From positions 1 through 64,000 of the forward strand of contig JAURMR010000024.1 in the NCBI GenBank assembly GCA_030830565.1: 64,000 nt of DNA, in the 5' to 3' direction. Under the pieces are notes generated by a model. It had not been told where the DNA came from. It did no database searches and worked only from the letters and a program-made list of their open reading frames with translations. Of this stretch, positions 9,923 to 13,689 are shown piece by piece; positions within the stretch are counted from its first letter, which is position 1, and each line of letters opens with the position of its first letter. Both the position numbers and the translations under genes were made by a program. This DNA comes from Acidimicrobiales bacterium (lineage in GTDB: Bacteria; Actinomycetota; Acidimicrobiia; Acidimicrobiales; Acidimicrobilacustridaceae).

Positions 9923-11212
9923 TCAGGCGAATCCAAGCCAACCTGCAACCGTCTGCACTAACACCACAGTCGCAAGAATCGCGATAACGACAACACAAAT
10001 CAGCGCAGCAACTTTGAACTTTGGTCCGTTCGCGGCGTTTCCAAGGACTGCTCGACGATTCGCCAAGATCAAGATGAAAATCAAGATGATTGGCGTAATC
10101 AAACCGTTGATCACCTGCATATTGATCAGCAGCGAAATCAGGTTTCCTGGAAGTAATGCGACCAACGCACCGATCACAATGAGAGCTGTGAAGAGTCCCA
10201 TGAAGAGCGGCGCTTCGCGGAAGGTCTTCGAGACAGAACGCTCGACACCAACCGCTTCGGCAACTGCATACGAAGTTGCCAGCGGGACGACTGCAGCAGC
10301 AAGAGCAGATGCTCCGAGCAGACCGATCCCAAAAAGAATTTCGGCTGCTGACCCAGCGACCGGCTCAAGGGCTTGCGCGGCCTCTTTTGCCGATTCCAGC
10401 GGACCAGTGCCGCCGATCGCTGCAGCAGTGGCGATGATGATCGCCATCGAAATGATGTTCGCGAACACCGCACCAGTAATGGTGTCGATGCGAACCATCC
10501 GGTAATCCTCGGGACCGCTTCCGCTGTCGGCCACCGCTGCCGCTTGGTACAGCTGCATATACGGCGTGATGGTTGTACCGATCAGAGCGACGACCAAGAA
10601 GAGGAACTCTTTGGTTCCGAGCATGTGGGGAATGAAGGTGTTGCTTGCAACCTCGCCCCAATCCGGCTTTCCCAGGATCGCCGCAATTGGATAGGTAATG
10701 AATGCGAGACCGAGAAGCAAAAAGACTCGCTCGGCATAGCGATAGTTGCCGAAAACAACGACCGCCCAAATCGCAACAGCTCCAATCGGGATCGAGATGT
10801 ACCGAGAGACCCCAAAGAGTTCGAATGCTGCGCCGATACCTGCAAATTCCGAAACAACAAGACCAAGGTTTGCGATGAGCAAACAAATGATTGCGAATGC
10901 TGATGCTCGGAGCGGGAATTGTTCGCGAATGAGCGACATCAGTCCTTCGCCGGTATGCGCACCGAGCCGAGCGGACATTTCTTGCACGATGACTAACGCC
11001 ACGGTGACCAGCAACATGACAAAGAGTGTTCGGTAGCCGAATTCTGAACCGGCCGACGCGTAGGTGGCGATACCGCCGGCATCGTTCCCGGCATTCGCTG
11101 CAATAAGCCCGGGACCGAGAACTGCGAGCCAAACCATCCAACGACGACGGCGCTTCGGCGCGGCAGAGCGCGCGCCTGAGGCCTTCGTGGATTCGTTGAT
11201 CGGATCGCTCAT
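9923..11212 (-). CDS. NRAMP (SLC11)-family divalent metal transporter, divergent NRMT-like subgroup
   Basis: A 429-residue protein with about 11 membrane helices and the NRAMP layout. Helix 1 carries GNDAGGIATYASAG, where classical NRAMP has DPGN: Asp44 is kept and the Asn ligand is replaced by Gly47. Helix 6 reads IGTTITPYMQ, where classical proteins have AxxMPH: the transition-metal-selecting Met is Thr216 and His is Tyr218. These changes are like those reported for NRAMP-related magnesium transporters, so Mg2+ or Mn2+ transport is likelier than iron (inference). It lies 11 nt downstream of a soluble MgtE-N/CBS protein, its probable regulatory partner, in one operon behind a leader peptide. 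Confidence 0.85.
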   Translation of the reverse strand: MSDPINESTKASGARSAAPKRRRRWMVWLAVLGPGLIAANAGNDAGGIATYASAGSEFGYRTLFVMLLVTVALVIVQEMSARLGAHTGEGLMSLIREQFPLRASAFAIICLLIANLGLVVSEFAGIGAAFELFGVSRYISIPIGAVAIWAVVVFGNYRYAERVFLLLGLAFITYPIAAILGKPDWGEVASNTFIPHMLGTKEFLFLVVALIGTTITPYMQLYQAAAVADSGSGPEDYRMVRIDTITGAVFANIISMAIIIATAAAIGGTGPLESAKEAAQALEPVAGSAAEILFGIGLLGASALAAAVVPLATSYAVAEAVGVERSVSKTFREAPLFMGLFTALIVIGALVALLPGNLISLLINMQVINGLITPIILIFILILANRRAVLGNAANGPKFKVAALICVVVIAILATVVLVQTVAGWLGFA

Positions 11213-11223
11213 GACAACTCAGT

Positions 11224-12558
11224 TCACGCGAGCAGTCGGGTAAATGGGCGGCGGTTCGATTCGTGATGCGGAATCAGTGCGTCCACAACATCGTCAGCAA
11301 GGATTCGACCGATCGGGCGACTTTGTTCGTCAACAACAACGATTGATGACCCGCGGTTTTCGACAAAAGATTCGATGACGTCTTCAATCGGCGCTTCGAC
11401 GGTGACCGTTACCGGCCAAGGTGAGCCAATGAGGGAACGAAGTGAGTCGTCGGGGCCTGCCATGAAGAGGTCGATCATCAAGATGTCGTCAAGCAAGGTT
11501 CCATCCGCATCAAGAACCAGAACCGATTCGAGACGAGCAATGTCTTCGGCTTCTTCAAGTCGTTGACGCGCATCAGCGACCGTTAAATCAGCATCGAAGG
11601 CAAACAAGGCAGTCGTCATGAGACCGCCCGCGGTTTCTTCGTCGTAGCCAACCAAACGAACCAGCACTTCAGCGTCTTCCTGGTCCATCACCGCAAGCAG
11701 TTCGTCACGAGTCTCGTCATCAAGATCACGCAGCGCCTCCGCCGCTTCATCGGGCTCCATTTCGGCGAGCAACGATGCAGCCTGCTCTGGATCTGCATCT
11801 CGAAGAAGAACCGAAAGTTCGTCCGGTTCCATTTCTTCAAGAGCGTCAGCAGCGGTTTCAGCATCAAGTGCAGCAAGGAGTTCCTGTCGCTGCGATCGAC
11901 CGAGTTCTTCAAGAAGGTCAGCGAGCTCACCAGGCCGGAGCCGGCGCAATTCACTGTTGGCCCGACTGAGGCGGACGGGCTCCCCCGGATCGGAAAAGGG
12001 CTGAATGGCGGCCCAGTCGATGACCCGATCGGGATGCGGGCGTACACGCCAACGCGCCGGACCAAGGCGACGCACCAATGTTGAAAATCCAACGTCTGCG
12101 CCCACCAATCGGTAGCCACCCCCAACACGTGCCAAGAACAGGTCAGCAGCACGAAACACACGAACGCCATCAACATCGACCATTTGATGGTCAATGACGT
12201 CGTCGACCAATTTCACTTCGTTGTCACGACGCGCGAATTCCCGGAGGTCAACCTTTGCGGATCGAAGCACAACGCGGCGCTGCTCAAGTTCGCCAATCTT
12301 GTCCGCCGACACCCAGGTGAGCTGACGGCCAACACGAACCACAAGACCGGTAAGGGGCGGATACGGCTCGCCTTCCCAACGCACAACAAGGTCAACGAGC
12401 CGTCCTACTTCGATCCCGGAGGAGTGCACAACCGGCGCGCCAGTGAGTCCCGACACAGAAAGTAGGGACTCGGCAACTGCCTCAAGGGCAAGAAGTCGTT
12501 TTGTTCGTTGCTTGCGACGCTGCGAAATGGCACGCGGGGCATTGAGTGTCTGTGGCAT
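11224..12558 (-). CDS. Soluble PRC-barrel / MgtE-N / CBS protein, probable Mg2+ sensor of the NRAMP-like transporter
   Basis: The 444 residues contain a PRC-barrel-like region (about 35-180), a superhelical MgtE N-terminal domain (about 210-315, repeated (M/A)xxDExAxxLxDL units such as LLAEMEPDEAAEALRDL) and a CBS pair (about 315-435, ending VENRGSSIVVVDEQSRPIGRI). In MgtE channels these cytosolic domains bind Mg2+ and gate the pore, but here no MgtE membrane domain follows. Instead the next gene in the operon is the NRAMP-like transporter. It probably senses cytosolic divalent metal and gates or stabilises that partner. ATG 12558 follows GGAG by 6 nt; this site can be masked by an upstream hairpin. 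Confidence 0.85.
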   Translation of the reverse strand: MPQTLNAPRAISQRRKQRTKRLLALEAVAESLLSVSGLTGAPVVHSSGIEVGRLVDLVVRWEGEPYPPLTGLVVRVGRQLTWVSADKIGELEQRRVVLRSAKVDLREFARRDNEVKLVDDVIDHQMVDVDGVRVFRAADLFLARVGGGYRLVGADVGFSTLVRRLGPARWRVRPHPDRVIDWAAIQPFSDPGEPVRLSRANSELRRLRPGELADLLEELGRSQRQELLAALDAETAADALEEMEPDELSVLLRDADPEQAASLLAEMEPDEAAEALRDLDDETRDELLAVMDQEDAEVLVRLVGYDEETAGGLMTTALFAFDADLTVADARQRLEEAEDIARLESVLVLDADGTLLDDILMIDLFMAGPDDSLRSLIGSPWPVTVTVEAPIEDVIESFVENRGSSIVVVDEQSRPIGRILADDVVDALIPHHESNRRPFTRLLA

Positions 12559-12560
12559 GA

Positions 12561-12614
12561 CGGACTCCGGAACTGGAAAACGGACGGACTACGCCCACTC
12601 CAACTCCCAGTCCG
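12561..12614 (-). promoter_or_regulatory. Candidate attenuator with competing hairpins before the MgtE-N/CBS gene
   Basis: In the minus-strand RNA, CGGACT (12609-12614) can pair with AGTCCG at 12585-12590 or with a second AGTCCG at 12561-12566 that overlaps the GGAG ribosome site of the downstream gene. The two pairings exclude each other. The first arm lies 16-21 nt past the stop of a leader peptide, so ribosome behaviour on the leader could decide which forms. Confidence 0.4.
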
Positions 12615-12629
12615 CGAGGTGCGTGACTC

Positions 12630-12695
12630 TTAGAGAGAAATAGAGAAGGCGACACACGACATGAAGCGCGTACTTGGGGGCTCGCTAGCTGGCAT
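12630..12695 (-). CDS. 21-residue leader peptide upstream of the metal-transport operon
   Basis: The small frame begins at ATG 12693-12695, 5 nt after GAGGAGGTGA (12701-12710), the strongest Shine-Dalgarno in the window. The peptide is MPASEPPSTRFMSCVAFSISL and ends at TAA (12630-12632), 71 nt before the MgtE-N/CBS start. The Pro- and acid-containing N-terminus recalls the Mg2+-responsive MgtL-type leaders, in which low Mg2+ destabilises the ribosome; the similarity is in composition only. It is followed by alternative hairpins. I infer a translation-coupled attenuator. Confidence 0.5.
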   Translation of the reverse strand: MPASEPPSTRFMSCVAFSISL

Positions 12696-12861
12696 GTGGG
12701 TCACCTCCTCGAGATTTCAACGAAATATCAATGCCGACATTGAGCCGACACGACGGCCTACTTTCTACCATCTGGGGCCTCGAAGTTCCCCATCCGATCG
12801 ACATGGCTCGGTGAATTCGCCCATTGTTCATGCGTGGTTCGCTGTCGGGCAGGATGGGGAG

Positions 12862-13689
12862 ATGGCGACTGCTCCAGTGATTCTGCTCCCCCCGTCGGAA
12901 GGAAAGGCCGAAGGGGGATCGGGTCCAAAACTCCGGATCGCCAACCTCTCGTTTCCGCAATTGGAAGACAACCGATCGACACTTCGCGCTGCGCTCGGTG
13001 CGGCGATGAAGGGCAAAGAGGCAGGACGAGCCAAGTTGCTCGGCGTGAAGGGAGTCGCGCTTGCTTCAGCAACTCGCGCAAATCTCGACGTGCTGGCGTC
13101 CCCAACGATGCCAGCGATCGAGCGTTACACCGGCGTGCTCTACGACGCGCTTGATGTGGCATCACTTTCGTCTCGTGATCGAAAGCGCCTGAATAAGCAG
13201 GTCTTGATCTTCAGCGGTCTCTGGGGGGTTGTGCGTCCCGACGACATGATCCCTGATTACAAATTGAAAATGGGTGCGACTCTCTCACCGGTTGGAAAGT
13301 TGTCAACCTGGTGGCGTGAGCCACTCACGGCTGCACTGACAGCAACCGTTAGCAATGGCGTTGTCTGGAACTTGCTACCAAAAGAGCACGACAACGCATG
13401 GGCGCCATTCGGCTCGAATCACGCGGCTGGTTCGCAACCAACTGCAGTGTTCTCTGTGAAGTTCCTCGACGAAGGCGATCCCGTCAAAGGAGAGCGCTCA
13501 TTCACGACGGTAAACCATTGGAACAAGTTGCTGAAAGGTGCTCTTGTCCGATTCATTCTCGAGACGGGCGCCGATGACCCCAGGGCGCTTGCGAAGTTCA
13601 AGCACCCAGAGGGCTACCGATACGACCGAACCCTGACGGAAACGTTTCCGACAGGGACAGTTGTGAGCATGGTGCGACCCGCGCGCTGA
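12862..13689 (+). CDS. yaaA: YaaA/UPF0246-family peroxide-stress protein
   Basis: The 275-residue protein begins MATAPVILLPPSEGKAEGG, the LLPPSEGK signature of the family, and contains the characteristic RYTGVLYDAL and ILSGLWGVVRPxDxIPDYKLxMG-type block (here FSGLWGVVRPDDMIPDYK). In E. coli YaaA lowers free iron during peroxide stress and has a DNA-binding helix-hairpin-helix-like fold. The in-frame extension back to 12661 is rejected because homology begins at 12862 and the upstream part crosses the opposite-strand leader. CAGGAT lies 6 nt before the ATG, so it may be leaderless. Confidence 0.88.
   Translation: MATAPVILLPPSEGKAEGGSGPKLRIANLSFPQLEDNRSTLRAALGAAMKGKEAGRAKLLGVKGVALASATRANLDVLASPTMPAIERYTGVLYDALDVASLSSRDRKRLNKQVLIFSGLWGVVRPDDMIPDYKLKMGATLSPVGKLSTWWREPLTAALTATVSNGVVWNLLPKEHDNAWAPFGSNHAAGSQPTAVFSVKFLDEGDPVKGERSFTTVNHWNKLLKGALVRFILETGADDPRALAKFKHPEGYRYDRTLTETFPTGTVVSMVRPAR

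Follow-up and report, generated by a model that had tools for sequence, protein, structure and literature searches.

Introduction

The stretch analysed here, 64,000 nucleotides of contig JAURMR010000024.1 from an Acidimicrobiales bacterium and referred to below as the window, carries a short reading frame with its own ribosome site in front of a pair of metal-transport genes. The locus raises the question of whether a ribosome reading this frame controls the genes behind it and, if so, in response to what signal. A preliminary description had taken the frame for a possible leader-peptide attenuator with a link to Mg2+. That interpretation is partly supported by the comparisons that follow.

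The leader frame and its operon

The features concerned all lie on the minus strand and are listed in the direction of transcription.

12761-12770, minus strand: TGGTAGAAAG, putative -10-like element of the operon promoter, conserved in the family alignment apart from small changes
12701-12710, minus strand: GAGGAGGTGA, ribosome site of the leader frame; with position 12700 it doubles as pairing arm 1
12630-12695, minus strand: leader frame, 21 codons plus TAA, MPASEPPSTRFMSCVAFSISL, from the sequence and ORF reading; length and in-frame stop are kept in relatives
12672-12683, minus strand: putative sensor core, codons 5-8 of the leader, GAG CCC CCA AGT (EPPS)
12643-12656, minus strand: pairing arm 2, which lies within the leader frame towards its 3' end and pairs with arm 1 or arm 3
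12590-12601, minus strand: pairing arm 3, beyond the leader frame on its 3' side; pairing in class-wide excess over shuffles, not significant in the window alone
12554-12568, minus strand: start region of the MgtE_N/CBS gene with its ribosome site (GGAG, 12568-12565), a possible partner of arm 3
11224-12558, minus strand: MgtE_N and CBS cytosolic protein, 444 amino acids, assigned from Pfam and MgtE cytosolic-domain structures
9923-11212, minus strand: NRAMP-family transporter of the NRMT (magnesium) clade, 429 amino acids, assigned from its best solved relative and a motif

The leader start, ATG at 12695, lies five bases beyond GAGGAGGTGA (12710-12701), and the stop is the TAA at 12632-12630. 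The preliminary description had placed such a frame before MgtE-N/CBS and NRAMP-like genes; its coordinates are confirmed and Pfam identifies the genes. It had also called the ribosome site the best Shine-Dalgarno of the window, which fits the presence of GGAGGTGA just once on the two strands of the 64 kb. Shuffled sequences average 2.3 copies, and the octamer by itself is unremarkable against them. On comparative grounds the 21-codon frame is real and selected, lying far beyond chance because it is conserved in relatives and present as a single copy in each genome tested.

A scan with the sigma-70 consensus found no promoter in the region of TGGTAGAAAG. In distant loci TAGAAT- or TACAAT-like elements were seen by eye at a similar place, and it is likely from the alignments that TGGTAGAAAG and these counterparts are -10 boxes.

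The divergent gene beside the leader encodes a YaaA-type protein. Downstream, the best solved relative of the NRAMP-family transporter is 7qia (E 3e-100), which we take to be EleNRMT, with MntH structures following at about 3e-26. The DAGG and TTIT segments of the transporter align with 7qia and fit the pattern DxxG-TxxA/T (helix 1 / helix 6). This is the NRMT motif given in the available text of a description of EleNRMT (PMC8806188). The best solved relative and the motif together place the transporter in the NRMT magnesium clade, and Mg2+ transport is predicted. A relative of the NRAMP gene adjoins the MgtE_N gene in 79 of 80 homologous loci; in the other, L080, none lies within the available stretch around the MgtE_N gene. 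Judged by these relationships the operon is a magnesium operon.

Distribution of the leader

It had been suggested in the preliminary description that relatives be searched for a frame with a conserved start rich in proline and glutamate, and such a frame, beginning with acidic and proline residues, does precede homologous operons. From 296 genomes drawn evenly across the class we obtained 30 homologues at E 1e-90, 29 of them with upstream sequence, and the core [E/D](Q)PPS is present in 26 of the 29. The remainder comprise one DAPS variant (G669) and two operons without the core (G632 and G501). Some of these 26 leaders are the same loci as in the 80-locus set considered next. Alignment of 24 upstream regions, that of the window included, shows the ribosome site, start and core to be almost invariant within the genus and family and still recognisable in the three most distant members.

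The window and the 80 loci, 1.17 million strand-bases in all, were scanned strictly for a ribosome site, a start, an early [E/D](Q)PPS and a short frame. The scan returned 43 frames, that of the window and 42 in the loci, every one upstream of an MgtE_N gene; none was found away from that position, and this absence elsewhere is the informative part, the motif having been derived from the scanned loci themselves. L032-L087 are 56 loci, almost all with actinobacterial labels; the core is present in 43 of them, namely the 42 of the strict scan and L065, whose ribosome site is weaker. Upstream sequence is too short in four (L067, L070, L084 and L087), and the core is absent or variant in nine (L051, L054 with DIPHS, L072, L078, L080, L081, L083, L085 and L086). 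The strict scan found the core in none of the 24 loci from other phyla (L088-L111). Homologues without the frame exist and count against a role of the kind proposed below; they include four from Streptomyces (L072, L083, L085 and L086), one from Microbacterium (L081), L051/G632, G501, L078 and L080. An Rfam scan of three loci with the operon and no EPPS leader (L072, L081 and L083) gave no match.

At greater distance, 27 upstream stretches of homologues mostly 30-36% identical (L119-L145) contain no PPS core, the loose match in L129 being a DPPG frame. By the same scan the core is absent from L117 and L118 (55-56% identity), the former on the contig of L054, which bears the DIPHS variant. The variant cores read SDAPS in L163 (G669) and GDIPHS in L054, and AGT is kept in both.

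With a sequence model of the leader, nine of nine genomes, picked for the test because they bear the leader, each yield a single strong copy (E at most 2.1e-6); the next best match in any of them has E 0.028. A phylum-wide search of 396 genomes with a sequence-only model, R1, matched in four, namely two members of the genus together with G114 and G441, but scored few candidates per genome, missed relatives and did not serve as a census. The G441 match did not read as a leader on inspection.

Several records deserve comment. On a contig labelled Mycolicibacterium (L077, G721) the operon follows a short leader, MTGEPPSTANR; within its family a homologue at E 1e-60 occurs in one of 81 genomes, namely its own, and the operon may have arrived there by transfer or belong to a mis-binned contig. 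Four metagenome-assembled records (L038, L041, L044 and L067) are titled Bifidobacterium breve, although their contigs are close to the Acidimicrobiia operon, and the titles look wrong. In L053, L056, L058 and L151 a small gene, presumably ferredoxin-like, was seen by eye, whole or as its end, directly upstream of the leader.

A probable link to magnesium

The preliminary description had seen no M-box, and we too found none in the window, nor any up to E 10 in positions 12300-13000. Elsewhere the M-box (Magnesium, RF00380) lies upstream of the same MgtE_N-NRMT pair in nine of 13 non-actinobacterial loci tested (L091, L093, L094, L095, L097, L102, L103, L104 and L108), which are labelled as Geobacter and relatives, Desulfuromonadaceae, Delta- or Proteobacteria and one Anaerolineae; four other loci from outside the phylum (L088, L089, L107 and L110) gave no M-box. 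Leader-bearing loci yielded none in 24, namely L053, L061, L063 and L077 and 20 more. In the latter 20 no match of any Rfam family covers the leader. The leader occupies the place where other bacteria carry a Mg2+ riboswitch.

In the available text of an earlier paper (PMC4072509) an MgtE-like cytosolic gene is described beside NrmT genes, some of them under M-box control. The same text has one NrmT relative, next to an MgtE-like gene, behaving as a Mn2+ transporter (PMC4072509), so that Mg2+ is not certain. We infer Mg2+ as the signal because the leader stands at the M-box position and its acidic-proline core resembles those of Salmonella leaders. The preliminary description had drawn its Mg2+ link from the downstream genes; with the NRMT assignment and the M-box on the same gene pair, this link is stronger than was stated there.

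Alternative pairings of the leader RNA

The preliminary description had proposed a switch in which CGGACT pairs with either of two AGTCCG segments, one masking the ribosome site of the next gene. CGGACT (12614-12609) and both AGTCCG segments (12590-12585 and 12566-12561) are present, the second segment does overlap the mgtE-N ribosome site GGAG (12568-12565), and CGGACT pairs with it in the minimum-energy fold of the window. The two pairings are nevertheless not conserved: in 12 sequences of the genus 48.6% and 45.8% of cells are paired, no better than in shifted controls, and the covariation check that had been proposed for them gave no compensatory change.

Alternative pairings of a different kind are conserved, so that this more general part of the proposal survives. 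We scanned the family alignment for seven-base antidiagonals in 16 of the 21 rows, counting pairs on all 21. The three top helices join arm 1 with arm 2 (1:2), that is the ribosome site of the leader with the 3' part of the frame, arm 3 with the start region of mgtE-N, and arm 2 with arm 3 (2:3). Over the 21 rows pairing reaches 90.5% in 1:2, where nine cells have changes on both sides, and 83.3% in 2:3, where eight have. Both helices score higher than any of the shifted controls, for percentage paired and for covariation, and higher than 495 or more of the 500 shuffles; they were selected on the alignment used for scoring, and kinship of the sequences inflates scores of this kind. Neither helix exceeds the shuffles in its count of two-sided-change pairs or of pair types. 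Arm 3 with the start region is paired in 85% of cells in the family with no covariation, a lack that neither proves nor excludes pairing since a start codon can vary little.

Individual leaders were also compared with their shuffled sequences, about two of 46 being expected at p<0.05. Helix 1:2 is significant in 18 (mean z -1.42), 2:3 in 12 (mean z -1.09) and arm 3 with the start in six (mean z -0.45). In the window alone 1:2 has p 0.005, 2:3 is no better than shuffles (p 0.22) and arm 3 with the start is not favoured (z +1.8, p 0.99). Nothing useful came of consensus folding on the wide alignment A3, in which arm 2 is not in register. The conserved RNA switch seen by comparison consists of the mutually exclusive helices 1:2 and 2:3, and the CGGACT/AGTCCG pair is not part of it.

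Each of 21 leaders was folded once from the end of the core and once from the end of the stop codon. Nineteen show a less open mgtE-N ribosome site in the first case, one shows no difference and one a more open site. This is the wrong way round for simple unmasking, a direction that is therefore unsupported by thermodynamics.

Proposed mechanism and codon signature

We think it rather probable that ribosome-dependent attenuation by a translated leader controls this Mg2+-uptake operon of an MgtE_N-CBS regulator and an NRMT. A ribosome would initiate at the very strong site and then meet Glu-Pro-Pro-Ser (GAR-CCY-CCN-AGT) at codons 5-8. Under low Mg2+ it may slow, stall or drop off at EPPS, leaving arm 2 free to pair with arm 3, and the transporter genes would be on. 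With ample Mg2+ the ribosome would reach the stop codon and cover arm 2; the released arm 3 would then shut the downstream genes, either through a masked mgtE-N start region or through premature termination. Were no ribosome present, arm 2 would pair with the ribosome site of the leader itself. Comparison establishes the frame with its core, its single-copy occurrence in the genomes tested, the operon and helices 1:2 and 2:3, whereas the slowing or loss of the ribosome, the Mg2+ signal, the direction of the response and its output are inferences.

The leaders also share a codon signature. Across 20 leaders of the genus and family the protein identity averages 93% over codons 1-9 and 33% over codons 10-21, and the length is exactly 21 codons in 20 of 21 leaders, with differing stop codons. 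Among 46 distinct leaders, which are related by descent so that the counts are not independent events, PPS (APS in one) starts at codon 6 in 41 and the serine codon of the core is AGT in all 46; of 582 serine codons counted in the MgtE_N genes that belong to the 30 class loci, 5.2% are AGT. The first proline codon is CCC in 39 and CCT in six, that is CCY in 45 of 45, one leader having alanine instead, and the second may be any of the four. The codon before the first proline is GAA, GAG, GAC or GAT, or CAA/CAG in DQPPS leaders, and this use of all four acidic codons or of DQ places the position under selection at the level of the residue. The acidic residue and the prolines are thus conserved as residues, CCY and AGT as codons.

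Such a signature could also be that of a true leader-peptide attenuator whose signal is not Mg2+ but decoding, the leader responding to proline-tRNA, EF-P, m1G37 or the serine tRNA that reads AGT, with the operon tuned to translation capacity. Adjacent proline codons and an invariant AGT do point to decoding at the codon level, and CCY followed by C is a shift-prone context dependent on m1G37 in the available text of a study of the Salmonella leader (PMC6335274). This reading is unlikely in our judgement: the single strong copy in each of nine genomes stands before this Mg2+ operon, the same gene pair is under a Mg2+ riboswitch elsewhere, and the conserved acidic residue suits a Mg2+-sensitive destabilization of the ribosome better than it does the sensing of tRNA. 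A programmed frameshift at CCY-C was considered and rejected. The in-frame stop is conserved in position only in frame 0, at a median of 16 codons past the first proline in the 46 leaders; the stops of the +1 and -1 frames drift, with widely scattered distances (medians 59 and 24 codons) and no conserved landing frame.

The strong ribosome site and fixed length would also be expected of a frame that is always translated, keeping the leader open or blocking Rho, with the core as a fixed pause and no sensing. The folding comparison, which gave no clean switch, agrees with this. We regard it as quite improbable, as both alternative pairings, 1:2 and 2:3, are kept and a fixed pause would have no need of the AGT codon that all 46 leaders share.

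The three nucleotides of AGT never vary and the core sits in the loop of hairpin 1:2, which might suggest an RNA loop (an aptamer or protein site) with the peptide irrelevant. Evidence from codons, frame and protein identity disfavours a core of RNA only and makes this very improbable: all four bases occur directly before the first proline codon although the residue remains Glu or Asp (Gln after Asp), frame 0 and its stop are kept, and codons 1-9 keep their protein sequence. A small protein with a function in the transporter complex might be suggested by the conserved N-terminus and by the small conserved peptide of unknown role accompanying the mycobacterial M-box in the available account (PMC12810186). 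It is scarcely credible given the low identity of codons 10-21, which arm 2 constrains as RNA, and the three leader peptides that match no family in Pfam or NCBIfam.

The mechanism proposed above, attenuation through a leader read by the ribosome, leads to a wider proposal that we offer tentatively and with some doubt. Acidimicrobiia may have evolved their own ribosome-read Mg2+ sensor, a fixed EPPS core, encoded by CCY-CCN-AGT, within a leader about 20 codons long, in replacement of the M-box before the same Mg2+ operon and with its own ribosome site as a pairing arm, so that the sensor also controls its own translation.

Comparison with known systems

Ribosome-based leader peptides that sense Mg2+ are familiar from enterobacteria. 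A literature search, with subscription journals mostly outside its range, returned no earlier report of the present leader. If our proposal is correct, it represents convergence with enterobacterial mgtL and mgtQ and would make ribosome stability a recurrent sensor of Mg2+. A conserved leader in a distant class, at the position that an M-box takes before this gene pair elsewhere, makes it testable whether ribosome-read Mg2+ leaders are a local enterobacterial invention, and its codon signature lends itself to asking what in decoding is sensitive to Mg2+: acidity of the nascent chain, proline pairs or m1G37-dependent codons.

MgtL, the leader of mgtA in Salmonella and E. coli, has early acidic residues. 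It shares with the present leader a short frame, early proline codons, a Mg2+ transporter downstream and alternative RNA structures. The available text of PMC6335274 gives CC[C/U] codons at positions 3, 5 and 7 of the mgtA leader, acting in Mg2+ control in Salmonella. The features of that type seen here are a short, translated-looking frame before a Mg2+ operon and acidic and proline codons at about 5-8. In this respect the preliminary description, which had likened the peptide to MgtL-type leaders in composition, was right about the acidic and proline-rich start, but what is conserved is a defined element, [E/D](Q)PPS with an invariant AGT, and not a general composition. By description, the present leader differs from MgtL in this fixed element and in using its own ribosome site as an arm. 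The transporter family and the phylum differ as well. The genes that follow are MgtE_N-CBS and NRAMP/NRMT rather than an mgtA/mgtB P-type ATPase, and this difference in downstream genes sets the leader apart from the mgtA/mgtB kind.

In mgtQ, from the mgtC-mgtB gap of Salmonella, the available text describes acidic codons or residues that abort translation in a Mg2+-linked manner, with arms 1:2, 2:3 and 3:4 governing access to the ribosome site of the transporter (PMC8092293). Acidic residues and alternative arms are thus common to both. According to the same text mgtQ has eight amino acids and is intergenic and enterobacterial, and its single proline codon matters as a pairing base and not for a stall (PMC8092293).

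The M-box precedes the same MgtE_N-NRMT pair in other phyla and is absent from the leader-bearing loci. In mycobacteria it occurs with uORF2/Rv1805A, which, in the available account, is likewise actinobacterial, Mg2+-linked and a small upstream frame with a conserved proline at position 7 (PMC12810186). There, however, sensing falls to the M-box and the peptide is its target, and the peptide is called mycobacteria-specific (PMC12810186), a comparison made by description only. Finally, arrest peptides of the RAPP type also carry a Pro-Pro motif for arrest within an upstream frame that has a regulatory role, as far as the available text describes them (PMC10951233). They serve protein-localization genes, whereas in the leader described here the core comes early, at codons 5-8, begins with Glu or Asp and precedes a magnesium operon.
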